From positions 1-64,000 of the forward strand of contig NZ_JAATOT010000007.1 of the NCBI RefSeq assembly GCF_011806455.1: a DNA stretch of 64,000 nt, given 5' to 3'. Positions within the stretch are counted from its first letter, which is position 1. Every line of letters starts with the position of its first letter. The stretch is from Celeribacter sp. HF31 (GTDB lineage Bacteria; Pseudomonadota; Alphaproteobacteria; Rhodobacterales; Rhodobacteraceae). The notes under the pieces are model-generated. The model was not told the DNA's origin, ran no database searches, and worked only from the letters and a program-made list of their open reading frames with translations. Of this stretch, positions 2,307 through 13,057 are shown piece by piece. A program made the translations under genes and the position numbers.

Positions 2307-2347
2307 AAAGGTTTGGGCTGGCGTCATCGCCAGTCCATCTTCATATT

Positions 2348-2379
2348 GGGCGCGGGGGTCATCTTCCGCGCCCTTTTTT
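2348..2379 (+). terminator. Intrinsic terminator after the symporter gene
   Basis: GGGCGCGG (2348-2355) pairs perfectly with CCGCGCCC (2366-2373) across a 10-base loop and is followed by six T residues (2374-2379). It lies between the symporter stop and the next start (2406), so the downstream signalling genes probably receive only read-through or use their own promoter. Confidence 0.8.
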
Positions 2380-2405: not shown

Positions 2406-4223
2406 ATGAGCGCCACAGCCAAGATCATCGACTTCCTTCAGATCACCCACCCTTATGACGTCCTGCCACAAAGTGAATTGGCCGAGCTTGCCACCGGGTT
2501 CTCGCGCAAGACCTATGCCGAAGGTGAGGTGATCTACGCCCATGGCGAATTGCTCGAGGGCCTCTATCTGATCAAGGACGGCACTGTCGAAATCACCGAC
2601 GCCAATGGCGCGCAGATGTCGCTGTTGCAAAAGTCGAACCATTTCGGCGAGCGCGGGCTTTTGCGTGACGGCATGGCGGCGACCACAGCGACGGCGGCCT
2701 CTGCCTGTACGGTGCTGTTGCTCACGCCCGAGGCCTTCAAATCCGAAGTCTCCGCGAACCCTGAATTTGCCCGCTACTTCAATCGCGGCCAGGCCCGACC
2801 CAAAGCGGCCTCAGGCCTCATGACCCAACATGTTTCCGATCTCATGGCGAAGGCGCCGGTGAGCTGTGCGGAGACGACACCGATTGCCGAGTGCGCGCAG
2901 CTCATGCGCGACGCGAAAGTGTCCTCCGTCGCGGTGACCGAGGGCGAGCGCCTCCTGGGCCTCGTCACCGTGCGCGACATGACGAACAAGGTGCTGGCCG
3001 AGGGCAAAGACACCGCCCTGCCCGTTTCCGCCATCATGGCGAAAGACCCGATCACGCTCACCCCCGGCGCGCTTGGCACCGATGTGATCCACGTCATGCT
3101 GGAGAACCACATCGGGCACCTGCCCATCGTCGAAGGCGGCAAGCTGGTCGGCATGGTCACCCAGACAGACATCACGCGGTTCTTTGGATCGAGCCAGACC
3201 CAAATGGTCTTCGATCTGAGCAAGGCCGAAAGCATCGCCGATATGGCCGCCGTCACCGCGCGCCTGCCCGAGTTTCTCATGCAGCTCGTCGGCAGCCATC
3301 TGGCCCATGATGTGGTGACGCGCAAAATCACCGACATCGCCGATATCGTCACGCGGCGCCTGCTCAAAATGGCCGAAGAAGACTTCGGCCCCGCCCCCGT
3401 GCCATACCTCTGGGCCGCCTGCGGCTCCCAAGGCCGACGCGAACAGACCGGCGTGTCGGATCAGGACAATTGCTTGATCATCGACAACGCGGCGACGGAC
3501 GCGGACATGGACTACTTCCGCAAATTGGCACGCTTTGTCTGCGACGGGTTGGACGCCTGCGGCTATGTCTATTGCCCGGGCGATATGATGGCGATGGCCG
3601 ACCGCTGGTGCCAACCCCTCTCGGTTTGGGAGAGCTATTTCAACAAATGGATCGCGGCACCGGACAATGAGGCACAGATGCTGGCTTCTGTCATGTATGA
3701 CCTGCGCCCCATCGCGGGGGACGAGAGCCTGTTCACGCCCTTGCAGAAAACCGCTCTGGAGGCCGCGGCGAAAAATTCGATCTTCGTCGCGCATATGATT
3801 TCGAACTCTCTGAAACACACGCCGCCTCTGGGACTGCTCAGGGGCTTTGCGACGATCAAATCCGGCGAGCATCGCAATCGGCTCGACATGAAAGCCAACG
3901 GCGTCGTCCCCATCGTCGATTTGGGCCGGGTCTACGCGCTTCAGGGCAAGCTGACCGCCGCCAACACCCGCGCGCGGATCGAAGGCGCGATCGAAGCCGG
4001 GGTGATTTCGGAAACCGGCGGCAAGGACCTCTTGGCCGCCTATGACATGATCGCCACTGCGCGCCTCGAACATCAGGCCGAACAGGTCCGCAGCGGCCGC
4101 AAACCCGACAATTTCCTGAGCCCTTCGGCGCTTCCGGCGTTTGAACGCTCCCACCTGCGCGATGCCTTCGTCATCGTGCGCACCATGCAATCTTTGCTCG
4201 GATCATCCTCCGCGCGCTCATAA
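2406..4223 (+). CDS. cNMP-binding/CBS/DUF294 nucleotidyltransferase protein
   Basis: A 605-residue soluble regulator. Residues about 15-125 form a cyclic-nucleotide-binding-type beta roll (GEVIYAHGELLEGLYLIKDG, then the FGERGLL segment). Residues about 140-260 hold two CBS motifs that usually bind adenine nucleotides. Residues about 290-430 are a DUF294 nucleotidyltransferase domain with GSQGRREQ and SDQDN, the metal- and nucleotide-binding signature, and the rest is the DUF294 C-terminal helical domain. This architecture is commonly found next to DUF4212/symporter pairs, so a role in sensing energy or nucleotide state and controlling uptake is plausible. The target of nucleotidylation is unknown. 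The ribosome site is GGGAGG about ten bases before ATG 2406. Confidence 0.85.
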   Translation: MSATAKIIDFLQITHPYDVLPQSELAELATGFSRKTYAEGEVIYAHGELLEGLYLIKDGTVEITDANGAQMSLLQKSNHFGERGLLRDGMAATTATAASACTVLLLTPEAFKSEVSANPEFARYFNRGQARPKAASGLMTQHVSDLMAKAPVSCAETTPIAECAQLMRDAKVSSVAVTEGERLLGLVTVRDMTNKVLAEGKDTALPVSAIMAKDPITLTPGALGTDVIHVMLENHIGHLPIVEGGKLVGMVTQTDITRFFGSSQTQMVFDLSKAESIADMAAVTARLPEFLMQLVGSHLAHDVVTRKITDIADIVTRRLLKMAEEDFGPAPVPYLWAACGSQGRREQTGVSDQDNCLIIDNAATDADMDYFRKLARFVCDGLDACGYVYCPGDMMAMADRWCQPLSVWESYFNKWIAAPDNEAQMLASVMYDLRPIAGDESLFTPLQKTALEAAAKNSIFVAHMISNSLKHTPPLGLLRGFATIKSGEHRNRLDMKANGVVPIVDLGRVYALQGKLTAANTRARIEGAIEAGVISETGGKDLLAAYDMIATARLEHQAEQVRSGRKPDNFLSPSALPAFERSHLRDAFVIVRTMQSLLGSSSARS

Positions 4224-4241
4224 CAAAGAGGGTCAAACCCC

Positions 4242-4745
4242 ATGCTTCTCGAATTTATCGCCACCATTTCCGCAGGCGTCGGTGCCGCCGGGATCATCCT
4301 TGCGCTGCAAAAACTCTTGCGCCTGCCGATGCCGAAATGGGCGATGCCCGCCGCCGCCGGTCTCGCCATGCTGGCCTTTACGATCTGGTCGGACTACTCG
4401 TGGTTCTCGCGCGCCGAACAAGGGCTTGGCGAGAGCAAGATCACCGCCATGACCGTCGACAAGCGCCAGATCTGGCGGCCCTGGACCTTCGTGTTCCCGG
4501 TCACCACACAGTTCATCGCCTTGGACAAAGAAGGCGCCAAGGTCGACGGCGCCATGGTGGAAACCGACATGTATCTTTTGGCCCGCCGCTCCGAAAGCGC
4601 CATCGTGCCGGTGGCTTTCGACTGCCTCCTGTCGCGCCGCGCCGACACCGTCGGCTTGCCGGAGGGCGATCTCTCGGGCGCGACATGGTATGACATGGAC
4701 GAGAATGAACCGATATTGCGGACGGCTTGCGATGAGTTGAGGTAG
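4242..4745 (+). CDS. Conserved hypothetical membrane-anchored protein
   Basis: A 167-residue protein that I do not recognise as a named family. Residues 1-25 and about 33-52 form two hydrophobic helices, after which the chain is soluble: it holds DKRQIWRPWTFVFPVTTQFIALD, a strand-rich segment and two cysteines (CLLSRR and TACDEL). Topology suggests an anchored domain on one face of the inner membrane. It starts 18 bases after the nucleotidyltransferase gene and is followed 27 bases later by the receiver gene, so it is likely part of the same signalling transcript. No function is assigned. Confidence 0.75.
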   Translation: MLLEFIATISAGVGAAGIILALQKLLRLPMPKWAMPAAAGLAMLAFTIWSDYSWFSRAEQGLGESKITAMTVDKRQIWRPWTFVFPVTTQFIALDKEGAKVDGAMVETDMYLLARRSESAIVPVAFDCLLSRRADTVGLPEGDLSGATWYDMDENEPILRTACDELR

Positions 4746-4772
4746 CATCATCAGAAGGGGAGGAGGAGACAT

Positions 4773-5162
4773 ATGGCAGATCAAAAGCGCATCCTTCTGG
4801 TTGAGGATGAGGACAATATCGCCATCGCCATCGAGGTGTTGTTGACCCGCGCGGGCTATGAGCTTTTGCGCGTGTCCCATGGTGATCAGGCTCTCCCCAA
4901 TATTCGCGCGCAAAAGCCCGATCTCGTGCTTCTTGACGTGACGCTTCCGGGGCTGTCGGGCTATGAAGTTTGCCAGCGTCTGCGCCGCGATGCCGAATTG
5001 GCCCACATCCCCGTATTGATGATGTCCGCGCGCGCCTCCGAGGCCGAACAGCGCAAAGGCGTGGCCATGGGCGCGAATGCCTTTTTGACGAAACCCTTTG
5101 CCATGAGTGATCTTTTGGGCTCCGTCGCTCGCCTGATCGCAGGAGGTGCGCATGAAAATTGA
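4773..5162 (+). CDS. Stand-alone receiver-domain response regulator
   Basis: A 129-residue single CheY-like receiver with no output domain. The acidic pocket is the ED-D cluster near residues 11-14, the phospho-acceptor is D55 in LLDVTLPG, the switch Ser is S85 in MMSAR, and the conserved Lys is K107 in TKPF; all are intact. A strong purine-rich ribosome site (GGGGAGGAGGAG) precedes ATG 4773. The end overlaps the next gene by 11 bases, indicating translational coupling to the sensor-exonuclease protein. It presumably acts by protein contact, and the neighbouring kinase-like protein looks unable to phosphorylate it, so the phosphodonor is unknown. Confidence 0.9.
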   Translation: MADQKRILLVEDEDNIAIAIEVLLTRAGYELLRVSHGDQALPNIRAQKPDLVLLDVTLPGLSGYEVCQRLRRDAELAHIPVLMMSARASEAEQRKGVAMGANAFLTKPFAMSDLLGSVARLIAGGAHEN

Positions 5163-7254
5163 ACACTGGTCTTTGCGGCTACGGGTCTTTCTATTTTTCG
5201 CCTTTCTTGCCATCGTCGCGATCTCCGGCGAGGCCGTCGGGCTTTACCTCGGCTTTGCCCGGATGGACAACCCCGGCGCCATAGACGGGTTTGTCTTTGC
5301 CGGCGTGATCGCGGGCTTTGCCACGTTGGCCGTGGTGGCCTGGGTCTGGTTCCTGTTCGACGAACACCTCGCCCGCCCGATCCAGCGGCTCGCGGGTGGC
5401 ATGCTGGCGCGGGCGCATGCAGATGTCGATGACTCTCTGGACGAGAAAACCGCGCGATATCTGGGCGACTTGGCCCCCGCCGCGCGCGCGGTGACGGAAA
5501 ACCTCACCGCCACGCGCAACAAACTGGCCGAAAGCGTCGCGCAGGAAACCACCCGGCTCATCGAGGAAAAGGAAAAGCTCACAGCACTTTCTGCCGAGAT
5601 GCCGCTTGGGATCGTGCTTGTCTCCGGCCATCACAAGATCGCGTTCTATAATGGTGCGGCCGCCGATCTCATGTCTGCCGATCACGCCCCCGGCCTCGAT
5701 CATTCGATTTTCGATTTCCTGCGCGCGCGTCCGATTCAATCGGCCTACACGCGGCTTTGCGCGGGCGAAGGCGGCGATGGGCATGTGCTGCCCCTGACGG
5801 TTGCCACCACGCATGGCGGCGAGGTGCTCTCCGCCCGCATGCGCCTGATGCATGCTCCGAATGAGGGCGACATCACGCCGCCCTATGTGCTGACGCTCGA
5901 TGATGTGACCTCTGACCTCACGGTCCATGCCGAACGCGAGAAACTCCTGTCGCGCCTGTTCGCGACGCTGCGCCCCTCCATCGCCTCTCTGCAAACCACG
6001 CTGGCCGCGCGCGACGCCGACGACAGCCTGCGCAGCGATCCGCGTCTTGACCGCGCTTTGGTCGATGAGATGGAGAAACTGACCCGCGTCATCGCCACGC
6101 TCGACGATCAATATGAGGCGGGCAAAGCGAACTGGTGGCCGATGGCCCAAGTGCGCAGTGCCGAGTTGTGCGATGCGCTCTCTGCGCAGTTGCAACAAGA
6201 TGACATTCCGCTGGCTGCTGATGCCTCCGACGCCATGGCGCTCACCTTGGATGCGGTTCAGATCATCACGCTTCTGTCCCATATCGCCCGACACATCACC
6301 CGCACCGGCGGCCGCGCGCTGTCGTTTTTGATCAGCCGCGACGAGGGCGGTGGCGCGATGCTGGCGCTGGGGTGGAGTGGCGATCCCTTGTCGGTCGATC
6401 TGTTGGAAAGCTGGCTGTCTGAGACCCTCGACGTGGGCCTCGTCGACATGAGCGGACGCGATATTCTGGAGGCTCATGGCACGGAGATCTGGCCCGAATT
6501 CGGTCGCGCGTCGCGCGCGGTTCTGAAACTTCCGATCCGCGAAGCCCGTCGTTTGCGCCGCACCTTGGGCGATGGCCGTCGTGCCGTGACCTATGACTTT
6601 GATCTTCTATCGAAAACCCCACCAAAAGAGTTGATGGACACACCGCTCTCGGACCTGTCTTATGTGGTCTTTGACACGGAAACCACCGGACTGTTGCCGT
6701 CCCAAGGCGACGAGATTTGCCAGATCGCCGCGCTCCGTGTGGTGAATGGCAAGGTGATCGAGACCGAAGCCCTCGACCAGCTTGTGAACCCCGGTCGCAC
6801 CATTCCGAAATCCGCCACGGAGGTGCATCACATCACCAACGCCATGGTGAAGGACGCGCCCAAAATCGACGTGGCCGGACGGCAATTGCACAGCTTTGCC
6901 AGAGGTGCCGTGTTGGTCGCCCATAACGCGCCGTTTGATTTGGAATTCCTGCGCCGTCACGAGGCCGAGATCGGCGCGAAATTCACCAATCCCGTGCTCG
7001 ACACCGTGCTTTTGTCCGCCATCGTTTTTGGCCAATCCGAAGAGCACACGCTCGATGCGATCTCCAAACGTCTCGGCGTCAAAATCCCGCCAGAGGCACG
7101 TCACACCGCCATGGGGGACACGATTGCGACGGCGGATGTGTTTATCAAATTGCTGCGCATGGCCGAGGAAAAAGGCATCCGCACCTTTGGCGATGCCCTC
7201 ACGGAGATGCGCAAACACAAACGGCTTTTGCAAGATGCCAATGAGCCCGCGTAG
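5152..7254 (+). CDS. Membrane sensor-like protein fused to DnaQ-type exonuclease
   Basis: A 700-residue fusion. Two membrane helices lie at about residues 7-28 and 44-66 with a short external loop, then a HAMP-like linker, a coiled coil, a PAS-like domain (about 140-265) and a helical segment that resembles a histidine-kinase core. No phospho-acceptor His is seen where an H-box is expected (residues about 265-290, RLFATLRPSIASLQ), and I cannot find N or G boxes. From about residue 500 a DEDDh 3'-5' exonuclease follows: FDTETTG (about 506), HNAPFD (about 591) and HTAMGD (about 651), complete for catalysis. ATG 5152 is preceded by AGGAGG at 5141-5146. A PolC/epsilon-like exonuclease is often found in acetate symporter loci; the fused degenerate sensor is the unusual part. 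Substrate unknown. Confidence 0.85.
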   Translation: MKIEHWSLRLRVFLFFAFLAIVAISGEAVGLYLGFARMDNPGAIDGFVFAGVIAGFATLAVVAWVWFLFDEHLARPIQRLAGGMLARAHADVDDSLDEKTARYLGDLAPAARAVTENLTATRNKLAESVAQETTRLIEEKEKLTALSAEMPLGIVLVSGHHKIAFYNGAAADLMSADHAPGLDHSIFDFLRARPIQSAYTRLCAGEGGDGHVLPLTVATTHGGEVLSARMRLMHAPNEGDITPPYVLTLDDVTSDLTVHAEREKLLSRLFATLRPSIASLQTTLAARDADDSLRSDPRLDRALVDEMEKLTRVIATLDDQYEAGKANWWPMAQVRSAELCDALSAQLQQDDIPLAADASDAMALTLDAVQIITLLSHIARHITRTGGRALSFLISRDEGGGAMLALGWSGDPLSVDLLESWLSETLDVGLVDMSGRDILEAHGTEIWPEFGRASRAVLKLPIREARRLRRTLGDGRRAVTYDFDLLSKTPPKELMDTPLSDLSYVVFDTETTGLLPSQGDEICQIAALRVVNGKVIETEALDQLVNPGRTIPKSATEVHHITNAMVKDAPKIDVAGRQLHSFARGAVLVAHNAPFDLEFLRRHEAEIGAKFTNPVLDTVLLSAIVFGQSEEHTLDAISKRLGVKIPPEARHTAMGDTIATADVFIKLLRMAEEKGIRTFGDALTEMRKHKRLLQDANEPA

Positions 7255-7875: not shown

Positions 7876-9045
7876 TCAGGGTTCGCGGAAGGCCTCGCGT
7901 GATTTGTAGAGCGGTTTCAGCAGATATTGCAAAAAGGTTTTCGAGCCGGTGTGCAATTCGACCTGCGCGCGCATGCCGGGGCGGATCTCGATCCGCTGTT
8001 GCCGCTCCGTGAGGCTGTCGAGATCGACGGTGGCGGTCACCCGATAATAGGGCTGCGCGTTCGGATCACGTTCGTCTTTGAAGGTGTCGGCGGAGACCAC
8101 CTGAACCTTGCCCTTGAGCGCGCCGTAGATGGTGTAATCATAGGCCGAAAGCTTGATCGTCGCGTCTTGTCCCGGCTCAATATGGGCGATGTCTTCGGGC
8201 CGCACCTGTGCCTCGATGAACAGCTCTTCGTCGACGGGAATGATCTGGACCAATTCCTCGCCCGGACGGATCACGCCGCCGATGGTGGTCACCGTCAGGT
8301 TGTTGACGATGCCGCGCATGGGCGCCGTAATCACGGTACGATCCAATTGATCATTCGCCAGCGTCAGCGCCTGTTTCACCGACGCAATTTCCTTGAGCGT
8401 ATCGGAATATTCCTCGGCGCGCTGCAAATCGGCCTGTGTCACGATCTCATTATATTTGAGCTGCGCGTCCGAATGTGCCTTGCGTGCGCGGGTCACCTCG
8501 ATCAGAGCAACCACGTTTTTTTGCAGCATATCTTCCATCAGGGACCGCTCGTTTTCGGCCTGTTGGAGCACCGCCATGGCGCCGTCTTTACGGGCGAGAT
8601 AATCGGCGACGCGAGCGCTCAAAAGCGCTTGCTCAGAAGCCACGACATCGGACGCACGCGCGGCCAGATCATCGGACACATCAAAGGCCCCCTCACCCGC
8701 CATCTCCGCCTCAAGCCGCAGTTGACGCACATTCAAAGCATCAAGCTTTTCCTGAAGATCATCGGCGGAGGTGCGAAACTCCGTGCCTTGCAAACGCGCA
8801 AGCACCTGTCCCTGCGCAACCTCTTGGCCCTCATGCACCAAAAGCTCGGACAGGATACCGCCTTCGAGGTTCTGCACGATCTGCGGGCGGGAGCTTGAGA
8901 TCATCTGACCGTCTGAGCGCACGATCTCATCGACCCGCGCAATCGCCGCCCAGAGCAGGAACGCCAACACGATCAGCCCCACGATGCGGATCACCCAACC
9001 AGGACGATCCATGTCGCGATCCAGCATGTCGTCGAGCGTGACCAT
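7876..9045 (-). CDS. Type I secretion periplasmic adaptor, HlyD family
   Basis: A 389-residue membrane fusion protein. One N-terminal membrane helix (about residues 17-37) is followed by a biotinyl-lipoyl-like beta segment (GGILSELLVHEGQEVAQGQVLARL), a long alpha-helical hairpin (about 90-230) and a beta-barrel with RPGMRAQVELHTGSKTFLQYLLKPL at the C terminus, the classic HlyD/LapC ending. It bridges the inner-membrane ABC exporter and the outer-membrane factor. Its ATG overlaps the stop of the exporter gene, showing coupling. It is the fourth gene of the operon starting with the adhesin. Confidence 0.92.
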   Translation of the reverse strand: MVTLDDMLDRDMDRPGWVIRIVGLIVLAFLLWAAIARVDEIVRSDGQMISSSRPQIVQNLEGGILSELLVHEGQEVAQGQVLARLQGTEFRTSADDLQEKLDALNVRQLRLEAEMAGEGAFDVSDDLAARASDVVASEQALLSARVADYLARKDGAMAVLQQAENERSLMEDMLQKNVVALIEVTRARKAHSDAQLKYNEIVTQADLQRAEEYSDTLKEIASVKQALTLANDQLDRTVITAPMRGIVNNLTVTTIGGVIRPGEELVQIIPVDEELFIEAQVRPEDIAHIEPGQDATIKLSAYDYTIYGALKGKVQVVSADTFKDERDPNAQPYYRVTATVDLDSLTERQQRIEIRPGMRAQVELHTGSKTFLQYLLKPLYKSREAFREP

Positions 9046-11729
9046 TACGCTTGCCCGCCAGGACTTTGGGATTTCGACAGATGCGCCATGACCTGATCAC
9101 GCGGGCCATCTACCACCATGCGACCGCCCTTGAACACCATCGTGCGGTCCGCCAGCCCGACGATGGGCATACGATGCGTCGCGATCACGGCGGTGCGGCC
9201 CGAAAGCCAAGACTTCAAACGGGTCACCAAGGCGGTTTCAAGCGCCTGATCCAAGGCTGCGGTGGGTTCATCGAGCAGGCACACAGACGGGTTCTGCAAC
9301 CAAAGCCGTGCCCAGCCGATGGATTGCCTCTGCCCGACCGAAAGCCCTTCGCCGCCGTCGCGAATTTCGAGATCGAGCCCGCGGTGATGCCCACGGACAA
9401 AAGCACCAAGCCCCGCGAAATCCAGCGCGGCCAAAAGACGGTCGTCATTGCGTTCCAGACCGCTCAGATCGAGGTTGTCTCGCAGGCTCCCGGCAAAGAG
9501 CCGCACATCTTGGCCGAGATAGCCGACAGAGCGGCGAATGTCGCGCGGGTCGATCTGACTCATCTCTGCGCCATCGAGCAGCACACGCCCCTGCGTCGGC
9601 GCATAAAGCCCCGCAAGCAGTTTGAGAAATGTGCTTTTCCCGGATCCATTGGCGCCCAGAACCGCCACAATCTGTCCCGGTTTGACATCAACGGCCGGCA
9701 GATCCAACGTCGGCGCACCTTCCGGGTCATAGCGAAACTGCGTCTCGCGCAGGGCATAGGCGCCGGTGATCTCAGCGCGTCGCAGGAAGTTGCGATCCTC
9801 GCCCGAATCTTGCGGCGCGGTCGCGATCGCATCCAGCCCATCGAGCGCGGTTTTGACATTGGTCCACCGCGCCATGGTGCCCGAAAGCTGCGTCAGAGGC
9901 GCCAAAGTGCGCGAGGTCAAAATGCCGGTGGCGATGATCGTCCCCACGGTGAATTCACCCGCAAAAACAAGGTAAGTCCCGGCCACAACGGCCAGAACAT
10001 AGGTGAGCTGTTGCACCGCTTGCGACCAGAAGGTCAACACGCCTGCCAACTTGCGTTGCTCCGAAGATTTCGCGGCGGACAAGAGGTTCAGCTCGTCCCA
10101 GATGCGGCGCACGCGCTCTTCGCCGCGCTGGGTCTTGATCGTGTCCAATTCGAAAACGGCTTCGTGCAGCAAACGTGTCGCTTTGGCCGAGGCGCCTTGG
10201 GTCTCCTGCGTCAGACGCATCATGCGTTTTTGCATGAAATAGCCGGGGACGACCATGATCACCGCGCCTAGGCCCAAGATGATCACCACCGGCCCGGCGA
10301 TAGACGCCACCAAGGCGAAGAACAGGAAAATAAAGGGAATATCGGCGACAGAACCGATGGTGGAAGCGGTAAAGAATTCGCGCACCGAGCCGAATTCCCG
10401 CATCGCAGAGAATAGCCCTGTCGGCGTGGTCGGACGTGCATCCGAGCGCATCCCCAGGAGCCGCGACATCAACATGGATTGCACGCGCATCTCGATCTGA
10501 CGCCCGGCACCGTCCATCAATCGCGAACGAGCGAGTTTCAAAACCGCCTCGAAACCGATGGCCAAAGCGGCCCCCAGCGCCAACACCCAAAGCGTCGCCT
10601 GCGATTGATGCGGGATCACGCGGTCATAAACCTGGAGCGAGAACATCGCGACCGCGACGGCCAGCATATTGGCCACCAGAGAGCCCAGAGCGATCTCGCC
10701 GATCTGACGTTTGAACGCACCAAATTGGCCCCAAAACCAATGCTGTTTTGATATTTCAGGCACATAACTGGCGGCAATTGTCTCAAGCGACTTTCCGGCC
10801 CGCACCGCGACACCGGAGAAGAACGGCGCGAATTCGGTCAGAGGCACCTCGGCGCGCTGATCCGGCGCGCTTTGATCGAAGAGGGTGAGAACCTGGCCTT
10901 TTTGTTTCAGAACCAAAACCACATGACCCGAGGACATATAGGCCAGAGCGGGCCAGAATTTCGCACTCAAAGATGTTGGTCGCGCCACCTCGGCCTTGAG
11001 CCCCGTCATCTCCAACGCGCGGGCCATCGCCTCGGGCGTAACATCGTCGCCCGTCTGATCGGCGAAACTTTCCAACAGGTCGGAGACCATCGCGCGTTGA
11101 CCAAACTGTGCTGCCATATGGGCGACAAGCTCGGCGCGCTGGATGTGGCGACGCGAGAAAACCGGCTGAGGACGCGGCGCAGGCTCTGGAGCACTTTCGA
11201 CCGCGCGCTGTGCGGGCGCTTCAACGATCTCTTGGGGTGCAGGGGCCGGCGCAGGACCAGGGGCTTGCGTTTCGGGGAGCGCAGCAGCTTGCGCCTGTGT
11301 CGCCTCCACCTGACGCGCTTTGGCGGCGGCTTTCACCTCGGCCTTGACCTCTGCCGCATCGCGTTTCGGTTTGCGGGTCGCATCGGCAGCTTTGCGGGCC
11401 TTTTGCAACCGCTCGGCCTTGGCGGCCTCCCGTGCCAAACGCTCTTCTTCGCGCGCCTTGGCGCTCGCGTCTTCGCGGGCACGGGCCTCGGCGGCGGCTT
11501 CAGCGGCCTTCGCACGCAGGGCCTCTTTGGCCGCGCGCTTTTTCTCGGCCAAAGGATCGGCGGATGTCGATGCAGGCGCAGCGCGTGTGACCGGTTTCAC
11601 CTCCGTCTTCGGCGCGCCAAGATGCACCGTCAATGGCGCTTTCGGCGCTTTGACCTCGTTCGACACATCCGTCGGCACAGAAGGCTTCGCGGAGGTGAGT
11701 TTAAAGGCGAGTTTCGGGGCTTTGCTCAA
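9045..11729 (-). CDS. Type I secretion ABC exporter with long N-terminal extension
   Basis: An 894-residue permease-ATPase. Residues about 1-190 are a low-complexity, Ala/Lys/Glu-rich, probably coiled or disordered extension not found in the usual 700-720 residue LapB/HlyB proteins. Residues about 190-325 resemble the C39-like domain, but the usual Cys position is not occupied, so it is a docking, non-peptidase domain. The ABC membrane domain (about 340-620) has six helices, and the ATPase follows with GANGSGKST, LSVGQRQ and VCLLDEPTAALD. It powers one-step export of the adhesin encoded upstream. Its first codons overlap the end of the outer-membrane factor gene by 4 bases. Confidence 0.92.
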   Translation of the reverse strand: MSKAPKLAFKLTSAKPSVPTDVSNEVKAPKAPLTVHLGAPKTEVKPVTRAAPASTSADPLAEKKRAAKEALRAKAAEAAAEARAREDASAKAREEERLAREAAKAERLQKARKAADATRKPKRDAAEVKAEVKAAAKARQVEATQAQAAALPETQAPGPAPAPAPQEIVEAPAQRAVESAPEPAPRPQPVFSRRHIQRAELVAHMAAQFGQRAMVSDLLESFADQTGDDVTPEAMARALEMTGLKAEVARPTSLSAKFWPALAYMSSGHVVLVLKQKGQVLTLFDQSAPDQRAEVPLTEFAPFFSGVAVRAGKSLETIAASYVPEISKQHWFWGQFGAFKRQIGEIALGSLVANMLAVAVAMFSLQVYDRVIPHQSQATLWVLALGAALAIGFEAVLKLARSRLMDGAGRQIEMRVQSMLMSRLLGMRSDARPTTPTGLFSAMREFGSVREFFTASTIGSVADIPFIFLFFALVASIAGPVVIILGLGAVIMVVPGYFMQKRMMRLTQETQGASAKATRLLHEAVFELDTIKTQRGEERVRRIWDELNLLSAAKSSEQRKLAGVLTFWSQAVQQLTYVLAVVAGTYLVFAGEFTVGTIIATGILTSRTLAPLTQLSGTMARWTNVKTALDGLDAIATAPQDSGEDRNFLRRAEITGAYALRETQFRYDPEGAPTLDLPAVDVKPGQIVAVLGANGSGKSTFLKLLAGLYAPTQGRVLLDGAEMSQIDPRDIRRSVGYLGQDVRLFAGSLRDNLDLSGLERNDDRLLAALDFAGLGAFVRGHHRGLDLEIRDGGEGLSVGQRQSIGWARLWLQNPSVCLLDEPTAALDQALETALVTRLKSWLSGRTAVIATHRMPIVGLADRTMVFKGGRMVVDGPRDQVMAHLSKSQSPGGQA

Positions 11730-13057
11730 ATCGACGCCCCATCTGCCAGAGCCCCGTTGACGCGGGCGATTTCCAACTCGGTCAAGGCAATTTCATATTT
11801 CAGATCAATGTGTTTCAACTCTTCGCGGATCATCTGTTCGTAGACGTTCAAAACGTCCATGACGGATTTCTGCCCGGCCTCGAATTGATCCTGGAAAATG
11901 CGGTAATTGGCGCGGGTCTGTTGCACCAGATCGGCGGCATCGCGTTCCTGACGTCGCAGCGCCGTGAGGTGATTGGTCAGCCGCGCATCCCGGCGGGCGG
12001 CGGTTTCACGGGCCTTGTCGATGGCCGCGGTGGCCGCCGCCTCACGCGCCCGGCTGGCTTCCATTTCGGCGGAGGTGCCAAGGCCGAGGCCCGCACCCGC
12101 ATAGTCCACAGACGAGCTGTTGCCCTGCCCCAAAAGCGTTGAGGCGCTGAGCGTCGGCAGCATGGCGGCCCGTTGCGCTTGAGCTTCGGCGACGGCACGT
12201 TTGGCCTCGGCCTCGGCCCGCAAAACCTCAAGAGAGGTCAACCCCGAGGGCGGCAAAGCCACCCCGGTTGCCTGATCCAAAGCCGGCAAAGCGGCCCCAC
12301 CGGTCAGCGCCGCCAATTCGGCGCGCGCGCTGTCTTCGGCCTCGCGGTGGGTGCGCGCCTCATGTTCCATTTCCGAGATGATCGAGCGCACGACACGCTG
12401 ATCCGACAGGCTCGACGCACCGCCTTTGACGCGCTCCGTCACCACGCGGTTGAACTCATGCATCCGGCCCAGCCCGCGCTCGGCCATACCAGCCTTTTCG
12501 CGCGCTTCCGAGATGGTGATATAGAGCGTCAGCCCCTCGTAGAGCCGGTCGTTCATGTCCTGCGACAGAGCGACGGCAGAGACCTCGACGTCGGCTGCGG
12601 CAAAGGCGCGTTCGGCCCGGCGCTTGCCATTGTCGTAAAGCGTCATATCAACCAAAAGCCCGGCGGCCACCTGTCCCAGCGCATCGAGCGAGATCGAGGG
12701 CCCAATGGTGGGCAGCCAGTTCTTGGACCGGGCGACAGCGCGCATTTTGGACGCCCGCAATTCGGCCTCGGCCACCCCCGAAGAGGTGGAGAGCACGGCC
12801 TCGGCGACCCTGTCGTAGGCAGAGCCATCCCGCAAAACGGAACGCCGCGCGAGAAGATCGGAGATGATCGGAGAATTCGTGTCGGTGTTGGCGGCTGTCA
12901 GGCTTGGGGTCGTGCTGTTGCTGGCGGTCCCTTCACCTTTTAGGGCAGCGACAGGTTTGATGTCAGACAGCCCGCCCAGCATGCCGGAGGAGCCGACACA
13001 GGCCGACAGGCACATTGCCGCACCGATCAGGATGCTGAGCTGTGTCCGAACTGTCAT
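11726..13057 (-). CDS. TolC-family outer-membrane factor, predicted lipoprotein
   Basis: A 443-residue protein with the long helical repeats of the outer-membrane efflux (TolC/LapE) family; two related halves are visible, each with Ala/Arg-rich helices. The N terminus has a signal with lipobox LSAC, predicting lipidation at Cys 20 and anchoring in the outer membrane. It forms the exit channel for the type I system. It follows the adhesin gene by 59 bases and overlaps the exporter gene, so order in the transcript is adhesin, channel, exporter, adaptor. Family membership is clear; lipidation is predicted from motif only. Confidence 0.88.
   Translation of the reverse strand: MTVRTQLSILIGAAMCLSACVGSSGMLGGLSDIKPVAALKGEGTASNSTTPSLTAANTDTNSPIISDLLARRSVLRDGSAYDRVAEAVLSTSSGVAEAELRASKMRAVARSKNWLPTIGPSISLDALGQVAAGLLVDMTLYDNGKRRAERAFAAADVEVSAVALSQDMNDRLYEGLTLYITISEAREKAGMAERGLGRMHEFNRVVTERVKGGASSLSDQRVVRSIISEMEHEARTHREAEDSARAELAALTGGAALPALDQATGVALPPSGLTSLEVLRAEAEAKRAVAEAQAQRAAMLPTLSASTLLGQGNSSSVDYAGAGLGLGTSAEMEASRAREAAATAAIDKARETAARRDARLTNHLTALRRQERDAADLVQQTRANYRIFQDQFEAGQKSVMDVLNVYEQMIREELKHIDLKYEIALTELEIARVNGALADGASI

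Follow-up and report, generated by a model that had tools for sequence, protein, structure and literature searches.

A DEDDh exonuclease fused to a pseudo-histidine kinase and a DUF294 nucleotidyltransferase: a possible reversible switch of solute uptake in Celeribacter and its relatives

Why does a membrane sensor end in a DnaQ-like exonuclease, and why does its gene lie beside those of a nucleotidyltransferase and a sodium/solute symporter (SSS)? The question is raised by a locus of Celeribacter sp. HF31, in a stretch of 64,000 nucleotides of contig NZ_JAATOT010000007.1 (positions 1 to 64,000), which we refer to as the window. Its central gene (5146..7254, plus strand, starting at GTG 5146 or ATG 5152) encodes a membrane PAS pseudo-histidine-kinase fused to a DEDDh exonuclease; genes for a stand-alone receiver and for a DUF294 protein with cyclic nucleotide monophosphate (cNMP)-binding and CBS domains precede it. 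We propose, with a probability of roughly 40%, that these proteins constitute a reversible uptake switch, in which the nucleotidyltransferase turns uptake off, the exonuclease restores it, and the receiver and the PAS domain gate the exonuclease.

We modelled the fusion protein with AlphaFold2 using 55 family sequences (mean predicted local distance difference test score, pLDDT, 88.8). In the model, two N-terminal helices and a long helix are followed by a PAS domain, two DHp-like helices, a CA-like domain and the exonuclease, all encoded on the plus strand. The N-terminal helices (residues 8-37 and 43-89; 5173..5418) form a membrane anchor and a continuing helix according to the modelled secondary structure. 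The PAS domain (model residues 153-251; 5608..5904) is also indicated by PAS-family Pfam matches in relatives. The DHp alpha-1-like helix (5908..6018), which by model and alignment carries Ala at the His position, is followed by a modelled alpha-2-like helix (6040..6135) and by a degenerate CA (ATP-binding) domain (6145..6552), in which the model, Foldseek, a motif search and the alignment revealed no recognisable N, G1 or G2 box. The exonuclease domain (RNase_T, PF00929; 6664..7143) was matched by Pfam at E 1.1e-35. A first-pass annotation of this DNA had described two membrane helices, a PAS-like domain and a complete DEDDh exonuclease in this protein, and the model, the RNase_T match and the motifs FDTETTG, HNAPFD and HTAMGD agree with that description.

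The exonuclease domain is nearest to the PolC/DnaQ exonuclease domains (PDB sequence match 2p1j, E 1.6e-22; in the VIA comparison, Z 24.8 and root-mean-square deviation 1.8 over 192 residues against 9qpc). It shares their fold and five catalytic residues and differs from them in being membrane-anchored and joined to a sensor. The VIA rows were taken up by matches to the exonuclease domain and are thus uninformative on the kinase part. The catalytic residues D510, E512, D598, H653 and D658 (numbered from the start at 5146) were invariant in 45 family members, and the same five were invariant in a further, partly different set of 55. This invariance indicates, at the level of sequence, that the fusion of exonuclease and sensor is under selection and is not a chance product.

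The exonuclease keeps steady company with DUF294 proteins. The DUF294 protein of the window (2406..4223, plus strand) contains, by Pfam, a cNMP-binding domain, two CBS domains, DUF294 and DUF294_C (PF03445, E 2.7e-44; PF10335, E 1.4e-43). Its nucleotidyltransferase domain (about 3261-3668) carries the paired Asp motif in GSQGRREQ...SDQDN, as annotated earlier, and the nucleotidyltransferase motif is intact in 139 of the 148 DUF294 frames that span this region in the fetched loci. Among 190 alphaproteobacterial genomes, we found 39 DUF294 loci scoring above 100 bits, in 36 genomes. Weaker matches (<100 bits) were excluded, being mostly frames of about 800-1200 residues that resemble GlnE/GlnD by length. 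A member of the exonuclease family lies within 10 kb of at least 34 of the 39 loci, this being a lower bound because one genome (G026) has, about 1 kb from its DUF294 gene, a further partial match to the exonuclease that was left uncounted. A DUF4212 gene lies within 12 kb of 25 of the 39, and at least 24 have both neighbours, so that the recurrence of DUF294 and exonuclease genes beside DUF4212 symporters, which the first-pass annotation had put forward, was recovered as conserved linkage. Seen from the other side, DUF294 is found within 12 kb of 23 of 42 DUF4212 loci (42 of 43 matches, one under the cut-off being omitted). The class-wide exonuclease profile matches 184 of the 190 genomes, ordinary DnaQ included; because it cannot separate ordinary DnaQ, only exonuclease matches near DUF294 were used for linkage, the input being 34 matches (the strongest and those on DUF294 contigs) with ordinary DnaQ omitted.

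In six genomes from six alphaproteobacterial families (L224-L229), the exonuclease and DUF294 are encoded in one frame of 712-753 amino acids, with the Pfam order RNase_T, CBS, DUF294, DUF294_C. In these single chains the DEDDh set of five residues is complete, and they carry a GS(G/A)GRGESLL..DQDN motif. Their exonuclease occupies the place that the cNMP domain has in the window protein, and five of the six adjoin DUF4212-SSS genes. A seventh apparent fusion (G159, both frames 500 long) was dropped, as the two matches lie in different frames. Among 49 named loci with 6 kb of DNA on both sides, DUF294 was present in 40, SSS in 35 and both in 33. Genomes without DUF294 near the fusion gene had it elsewhere in all 11 cases searched (best match at least 135 bits), compared with 36 of 190 genomes in the class sample. 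In a Pseudomonas genome (not P. putida), DUF294 and exonuclease genes are paired twice, once beside SSS and DUF4212 genes. The repeated close linkage and the six single chains argue that DUF294 and the exonuclease share a substrate or a pathway. One further locus (L231) contains a receiver, a full fusion, two DUF294 genes and DUF4212-SSS together.

A nucleotidyltransferase-type/exonuclease pair near acetate-type transporters is already in print for Pseudomonas. In the pp_0354-pp_0353 operon of P. putida, a member of the MxtR/ErdR (= CrbS/CrbR) regulon, a CBS/nucleotidyltransferase-type gene adjoins an RNase_T exonuclease gene as it does in the window; the operon lies beside actP in some species, and its counterpart in the window lies beside a DUF4212-type symporter (accessible text of PMC9927547 and PMC8402216). 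This CrbS/CrbR-type gene pair near an SSS transporter occurs in the window and in at least 24 of the 39 DUF294 loci. The accessible text of PMC9927547 describes neither a receiver nor a membrane PAS-pseudokinase part for the P. putida exonuclease, in contrast to the window protein. According to the same text, deletion of the exonuclease gene (pp_0353) delays growth on pyruvate as deletion of the transporter does, and complementation works, while deletion of pp_0354 gives no such delay. In the available portion of PMC8402216, pp_0354 is treated as a homologue of PFLU5625 (Pflu5625) of P. fluorescens, a protein annotated with cAMP-binding, CBS and nucleotidyltransferase domains and predicted to act by nucleotidylation (PMC5715377, likewise in part). 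DUF294 is also mentioned in PMC7698356, which was uninformative. The locus had been annotated as a candidate for an undescribed system. That description does not hold for the nucleotidyltransferase/exonuclease pair, given the P. putida work and the prediction for Pflu5625. It stands for the rest: in the literature searched, with subscription papers mostly outside it, we came across no account of the pseudokinase-exonuclease fusion, of its receiver or of the single chains that join exonuclease and DUF294, and no paper with DUF4212. The pseudokinase/receiver layer is new as far as we found.

How might such a pair control uptake? GlnD and GlnE transfer nucleotides to nitrogen-regulation proteins and remove them again; their known targets are proteins, both directions of the reversible modification share one chain, and in GlnD an HD domain removes the nucleotide. 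The system described here has the same GlnD/E-like nucleotidyltransferase class, and the six single chains resemble them in joining two enzymes, the candidate remover being a DEDDh exonuclease instead of an HD domain. Protein nucleotidylation is favoured because DUF294_C is grouped with GlnD/GlnE in the accessible part of PMC3710099. In the proposed switch, the cNMP-binding and CBS domains would let the DUF294 protein sense adenine or cyclic nucleotides. This protein would lower uptake by attaching a nucleotide to a target, which is most likely one of the proteins in the symporter complex or a regulator of that complex. The DEDDh exonuclease would undo this modification through cleavage of the phosphodiester, a task that falls to the HD domain in GlnD. 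We assign the off-switch to the nucleotidyltransferase and its reversal to the exonuclease because of the asymmetry of the P. putida mutants: without reversal the transporter would stay off, and without the off-switch nothing would be lost. The single chains and the published genetics of the related pair support the opposition of the two enzymes; we infer the substrate and also the direction in which control acts. That a nucleotide is attached and removed was one of two ideas in the first-pass annotation, and it gains an argument from the existence of single-chain exonuclease-CBS-DUF294 proteins.

Several observations weigh against this switch. DEDDh enzymes act on nucleic acids and dinucleotides, and we know of none that acts on proteins; the literature that we searched names no substrate for either DUF294 or this exonuclease. 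Among the 49 named loci, 9 have no DUF294 nearby and 14 have no SSS, and the exonuclease scores in the Pseudomonas genome with two pairs are weak (51 and 59 bits). Loss of pp_0353 delays growth but does not abolish it (PMC9927547, accessible text). Mutants of the nucleotidyltransferase-type gene in P. putida and P. fluorescens had no phenotype under the tested conditions, which fits an off-switch or no role.

An alternative is an exonuclease that acts on RNA. It would trim or degrade mRNAs of the transporter or of central metabolism, and the DUF294 protein would be independent of it, merely sharing the operon. The domain is nearest to nucleic-acid exonucleases in fold and sequence, and the authors of PMC9927547 speculate, in its accessible text, on mRNA decay by the exonuclease. 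The linkage in at least 34 of the 39 DUF294 loci and the six single chains argue instead for a shared substrate or pathway, and the published phenotype of the exonuclease mutant parallels the loss of the transporter. We consider RNA a rather unlikely substrate. Somewhat more doubtful, in our view, is that a small nucleotide signal, or a tail on RNA, is the product of the DUF294 enzyme, the exonuclease destroying this product and the cNMP/CBS domains reading the signal for the symporter. The cNMP-binding and CBS domains of the DUF294 protein would suit this arrangement, as would the dinucleotide hydrolases among DEDDh enzymes and the joining of exonuclease to DUF294 in six genomes. However, the sensing domains sit in the enzyme itself, none having been identified in the transporter, and the grouping of DUF294_C with GlnD/GlnE points to proteins as targets.

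To return to the proposed switch, its second part concerns the control of the exonuclease by the receiver. The receiver gene (4773..5162, plus strand; Response_reg E 1.5e-26) encodes a stand-alone domain in which the phospho-acceptor Asp and the remaining active-site residues are present, and this Asp is retained in 99 of 100 aligned receivers. As previously annotated, the gene is intact and overlaps the fusion gene, by 17 nt (GTG 5146) or 11 nt (ATG 5152), which suggests that the two are translationally coupled.

We distinguished three kinds of fusion protein: those with a whole core, those with no match over the DHp alpha-1-like helix (about the first 36-46 core positions being unmatched), and short forms, in which the PAS part leads to the exonuclease via 24-63 residues. 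The 42 short forms examined were hand-picked from listings, not drawn at random (40 from the family scan and 2 from the genus-and-relatives scan). In five loci of the second kind (L128-L132), the spacing between PAS and exonuclease is 20-40 residues below the usual, so the helix is truly missing there. We classified 192 loci for the receiver. Where enough upstream DNA was available, a receiver gene adjoined 102 of 114 loci with a whole core. It adjoined none of the 11 loci that lack the first helix and 1 of 58 with no matched core, although the core model was built from Rhodobacteraceae proteins and "no core" elsewhere can mean too diverged. The single exception (L213) has a core-sized region unmatched by the core model; it was left unassigned together with L140 and L222, which have the same property and no receiver in the available flanking DNA.

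For the tree, L153 and L223 were kept out because of a short exonuclease stretch, and 13 further loci were dropped by hand: copies of genomes already present (L144, L145, L174, L181, L182), loci cut at a contig end (L054, L160, L196, L197, L203, L206), L190 (a broken frame, with a receiver 1574 nt upstream) and L216 (no in-frame N-terminal part and no receiver). In the resulting set, 111 loci have the alpha-1-like helix, and a receiver adjoins 99 of them; it adjoins none of the 63 loci without the helix. Five loci assigned to the class without the helix are doubtful, the helix being unmatched or weakly matched (L142, L186, L192, L214 and L223, the last outside the tree). When they are set aside or counted as having the helix, no receiver adjoins any of the 59 loci that lack it; of those that have it, 99 of 111 or 99 of 115 adjoin one. 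In the full tree set, seven independent contrasts fell on supported branches; 5.8 of them agreed on average and none was opposite (median sign-test p 0.03). The pattern is clean, and the independent events are few.

Receiver and core also diverge together. In 100 pairs, and with the other domains controlled for, receiver distance gave partial correlations of 0.41 with DHp alpha-1, 0.39 with alpha-2, 0.20 with the CA domain and -0.01 with the PAS/membrane part; for the first three, 0 of 2000 permutations were as high. On this indirect evidence, shared loss with alpha-1 and shared divergence with the DHp helices, the receiver probably docks on these helices of the kinase-like core, as had been supposed from the sequence of the window.

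There are also results that count against the receiver layer. Under the reverse pairing, 4.9 of 10 contrasts agreed, 5.1 showed no difference and 0 were opposite (median p 0.06). With the doubtful loci set aside, only 5 supported contrasts remained, of which 3.9 agreed and 0 were opposite (median p 0.125). The helix is kept without an adjacent receiver in 12 of the 111 loci, 5 of these being from Desulfuromonadales. Finally, the 42 short forms lack both core and receiver, so the layer is dispensable. The receiver and the pseudokinase core might then not touch at all, the receiver being only co-encoded and serving another partner. The 12 long loci without an adjacent receiver and the lack of significance under the stricter alpha-1 assignment would be expected in that case; the absence of the receiver from every locus without the helix (63, or 59) and the specific co-divergence with the DHp helices would not, and we hold this separation to be improbable.

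What kind of core would the receiver dock on? Foldseek searches with the AlphaFold2 model matched PAS-DHp-CA histidine kinases (top E 2.7e-16), among them WalK, LOV-kinases, ThkA-TrrA (ThkA with its receiver) and, at rank 43, DivL. TM-scores over the whole chain were low (0.14-0.22 by query) because the domains are arranged differently along the 700-residue chain. By sequence, HisKA/HATPase profiles gave no significant match to the middle of the fusion protein, HATPase_c appearing in 1 of 45 members at E 0.15. In 100 receiver-bearing relatives, the His position is occupied by Asp in 40, Glu in 35, Ala in 11 (as in the window), His in 2 and other residues in 12, and the Arg three positions further on is conserved in 96. 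None of the 100 has the canonical His motif, the two with His (L048, L049) lacking the rest of it, and none has the Tyr that DivL has at this position. A search for G1/G2 boxes (DxGxG[IVFL] or G[TS]G[LM]G[LMI]) matched 2 of the 100, both off the G1 place: L159 in the DHp part and L141 towards the C terminus of the core. That the N box is lost was read by eye from the alignment. Together, these data show that the core has a histidine-kinase fold and looks catalytically dead, in line with the kinase-like core without H, N or G boxes that had been read from the sequence. An active kinase core was rejected, the His motif being absent in 100 relatives and the ATP boxes degenerate. Neither of the two outcomes that the first-pass annotation had named as fatal to it, a normal kinase core and a lack of conserved linkage in relatives, was obtained. 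An ordinary two-component kinase that merely looks degenerate, with an exonuclease attached by chance, is very improbable, since neither the Foldseek matches nor a G2-like stretch seen by eye in L141 can offset the missing His motif and the invariant DEDDh residues.

Some individual loci depart from the common form. L141 is a divergent long relative with an adjacent receiver, its G2-like stretch lying in the CA domain, and is perhaps closer to an ancestral active kinase. The receivers of L047-L049 have 37-44% identity to the window receiver, the other proteins of those loci having 51-88%; the conserved Arg of the DHp motif is also lost there.

The DivL-DivK pair of Caulobacter likewise combines a kinase-dead histidine-kinase fold, PAS and a single-domain receiver (accessible text of PMC4211667), the likeness of the window proteins resting on sequence and model. 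According to that text, DivL carries Tyr in place of the His and has the kinase CckA under its control, whereas the window family has mostly Asp or Glu there and its output is the joined exonuclease. DivK~P is bound at the normal receiver-docking face of DivL: four of five mutations there weaken binding, and the Tyr-to-His change does not (PMC4211667, same portion). In the window lineage, the exonuclease would be the output of a membrane PAS protein whose kinase core lacks the His and ATP boxes and keeps the docking DHp helices. The co-encoded receiver, phosphorylated elsewhere (acetyl phosphate as the phosphodonor is a guess), would dock on these helices and, together with the PAS signal, turn the exonuclease on or off in the manner of DivK~P and DivL. 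Taken whole, the proposal that the DEDDh exonuclease is the de-nucleotidylase of an uptake switch, controlled allosterically by a phosphorylated receiver docked on a dead kinase, is one that we put forward tentatively and regard as doubtful in its full form.

We also examined how widely the fusion occurs. Of 41 genomes searched in the window's genus and relatives, 18 have a full-length fusion in addition to the window itself; the tally of 39 matches in these 41 includes ordinary DnaQ. At the family level, when long and short forms are pooled, 138 of 295 genomes have a match at E 1e-25. A scan of named genomes, considered here for the best 80 of 352 confirmed loci, extended the list to Rhodobacter capsulatus, Gemmobacter, Paracoccus, Ruegeria (short form), Azoarcus, Hydrogenophaga, Ectothiorhodospira, a Pseudomonas, Desulfuromonadales and two Bacteroidota bins. 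Fusion relatives span alpha-, beta- and gammaproteobacteria and Desulfuromonadales, and R. capsulatus (L146) has the whole gene set. A fusion private to the window's genus was rejected, as relatives occur in other genera and classes. In the two Bacteroidota bins (L210, L217), PAS and exonuclease are only about 152 residues apart, no kinase core is matched and no receiver gene adjoins.

The remaining genes of the locus complete its layout. The symporter is encoded at the start of the window, on the plus strand, by a DUF4212 small subunit gene (TIGR03647; 300..554; Pfam and NCBIfam over the cut-off) and a VC_2705-family SSS gene (TIGR03648; 567..2306; 822 bits against a cut-off of 320.75; Pfam SSF). 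The gap between the symporter and DUF294 genes (2314..2373, plus strand) holds two terminator-like hairpins, at 2314-2337 and 2348-2373, the second with an 11-pair stem of which 9 pairs are G-C, followed by T6; they come from a consensus scan, which by itself is no evidence of function. Because of the second hairpin and its T6, the four regulatory genes, from DUF294 to the exonuclease, may be a separate or attenuated unit relative to the symporter genes.

The second of these genes (4242..4745, plus strand) encodes a membrane protein of 167 residues without a Pfam match, modelled by AlphaFold2 as two helices and a beta domain (mean pLDDT 96.8). It is conserved beside the system, with matches in 108 frames over 112 loci. 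Cys128 is invariant and Cys163 nearly so in an alignment of 27 sequences, and the protein possibly has a periplasmic domain with a disulfide. Its best PDB match (E 0.48) is unconvincing, which does not imply a new fold. The fusion gene is followed by a convergent NUDIX gene. Further on, the minus strand (7876-13057) carries a type I secretion-like set, named by eye as HlyD-like, ABC transporter and TolC-like, in which the ABC transporter has a long Ala/Lys-rich start.

DUF294 nucleotidyltransferases, together with their exonuclease partners, are recurrent neighbours of acetate/pyruvate-type symporters. If the proposed switch is true, it would give two-component signalling an output other than transcription, cyclic-dinucleotide turnover or protein phosphorylation. 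The receiver/pseudokinase layer, if it too is true, would be a widespread case of a dead kinase serving as a receiver-reading input that gates a non-kinase enzyme.

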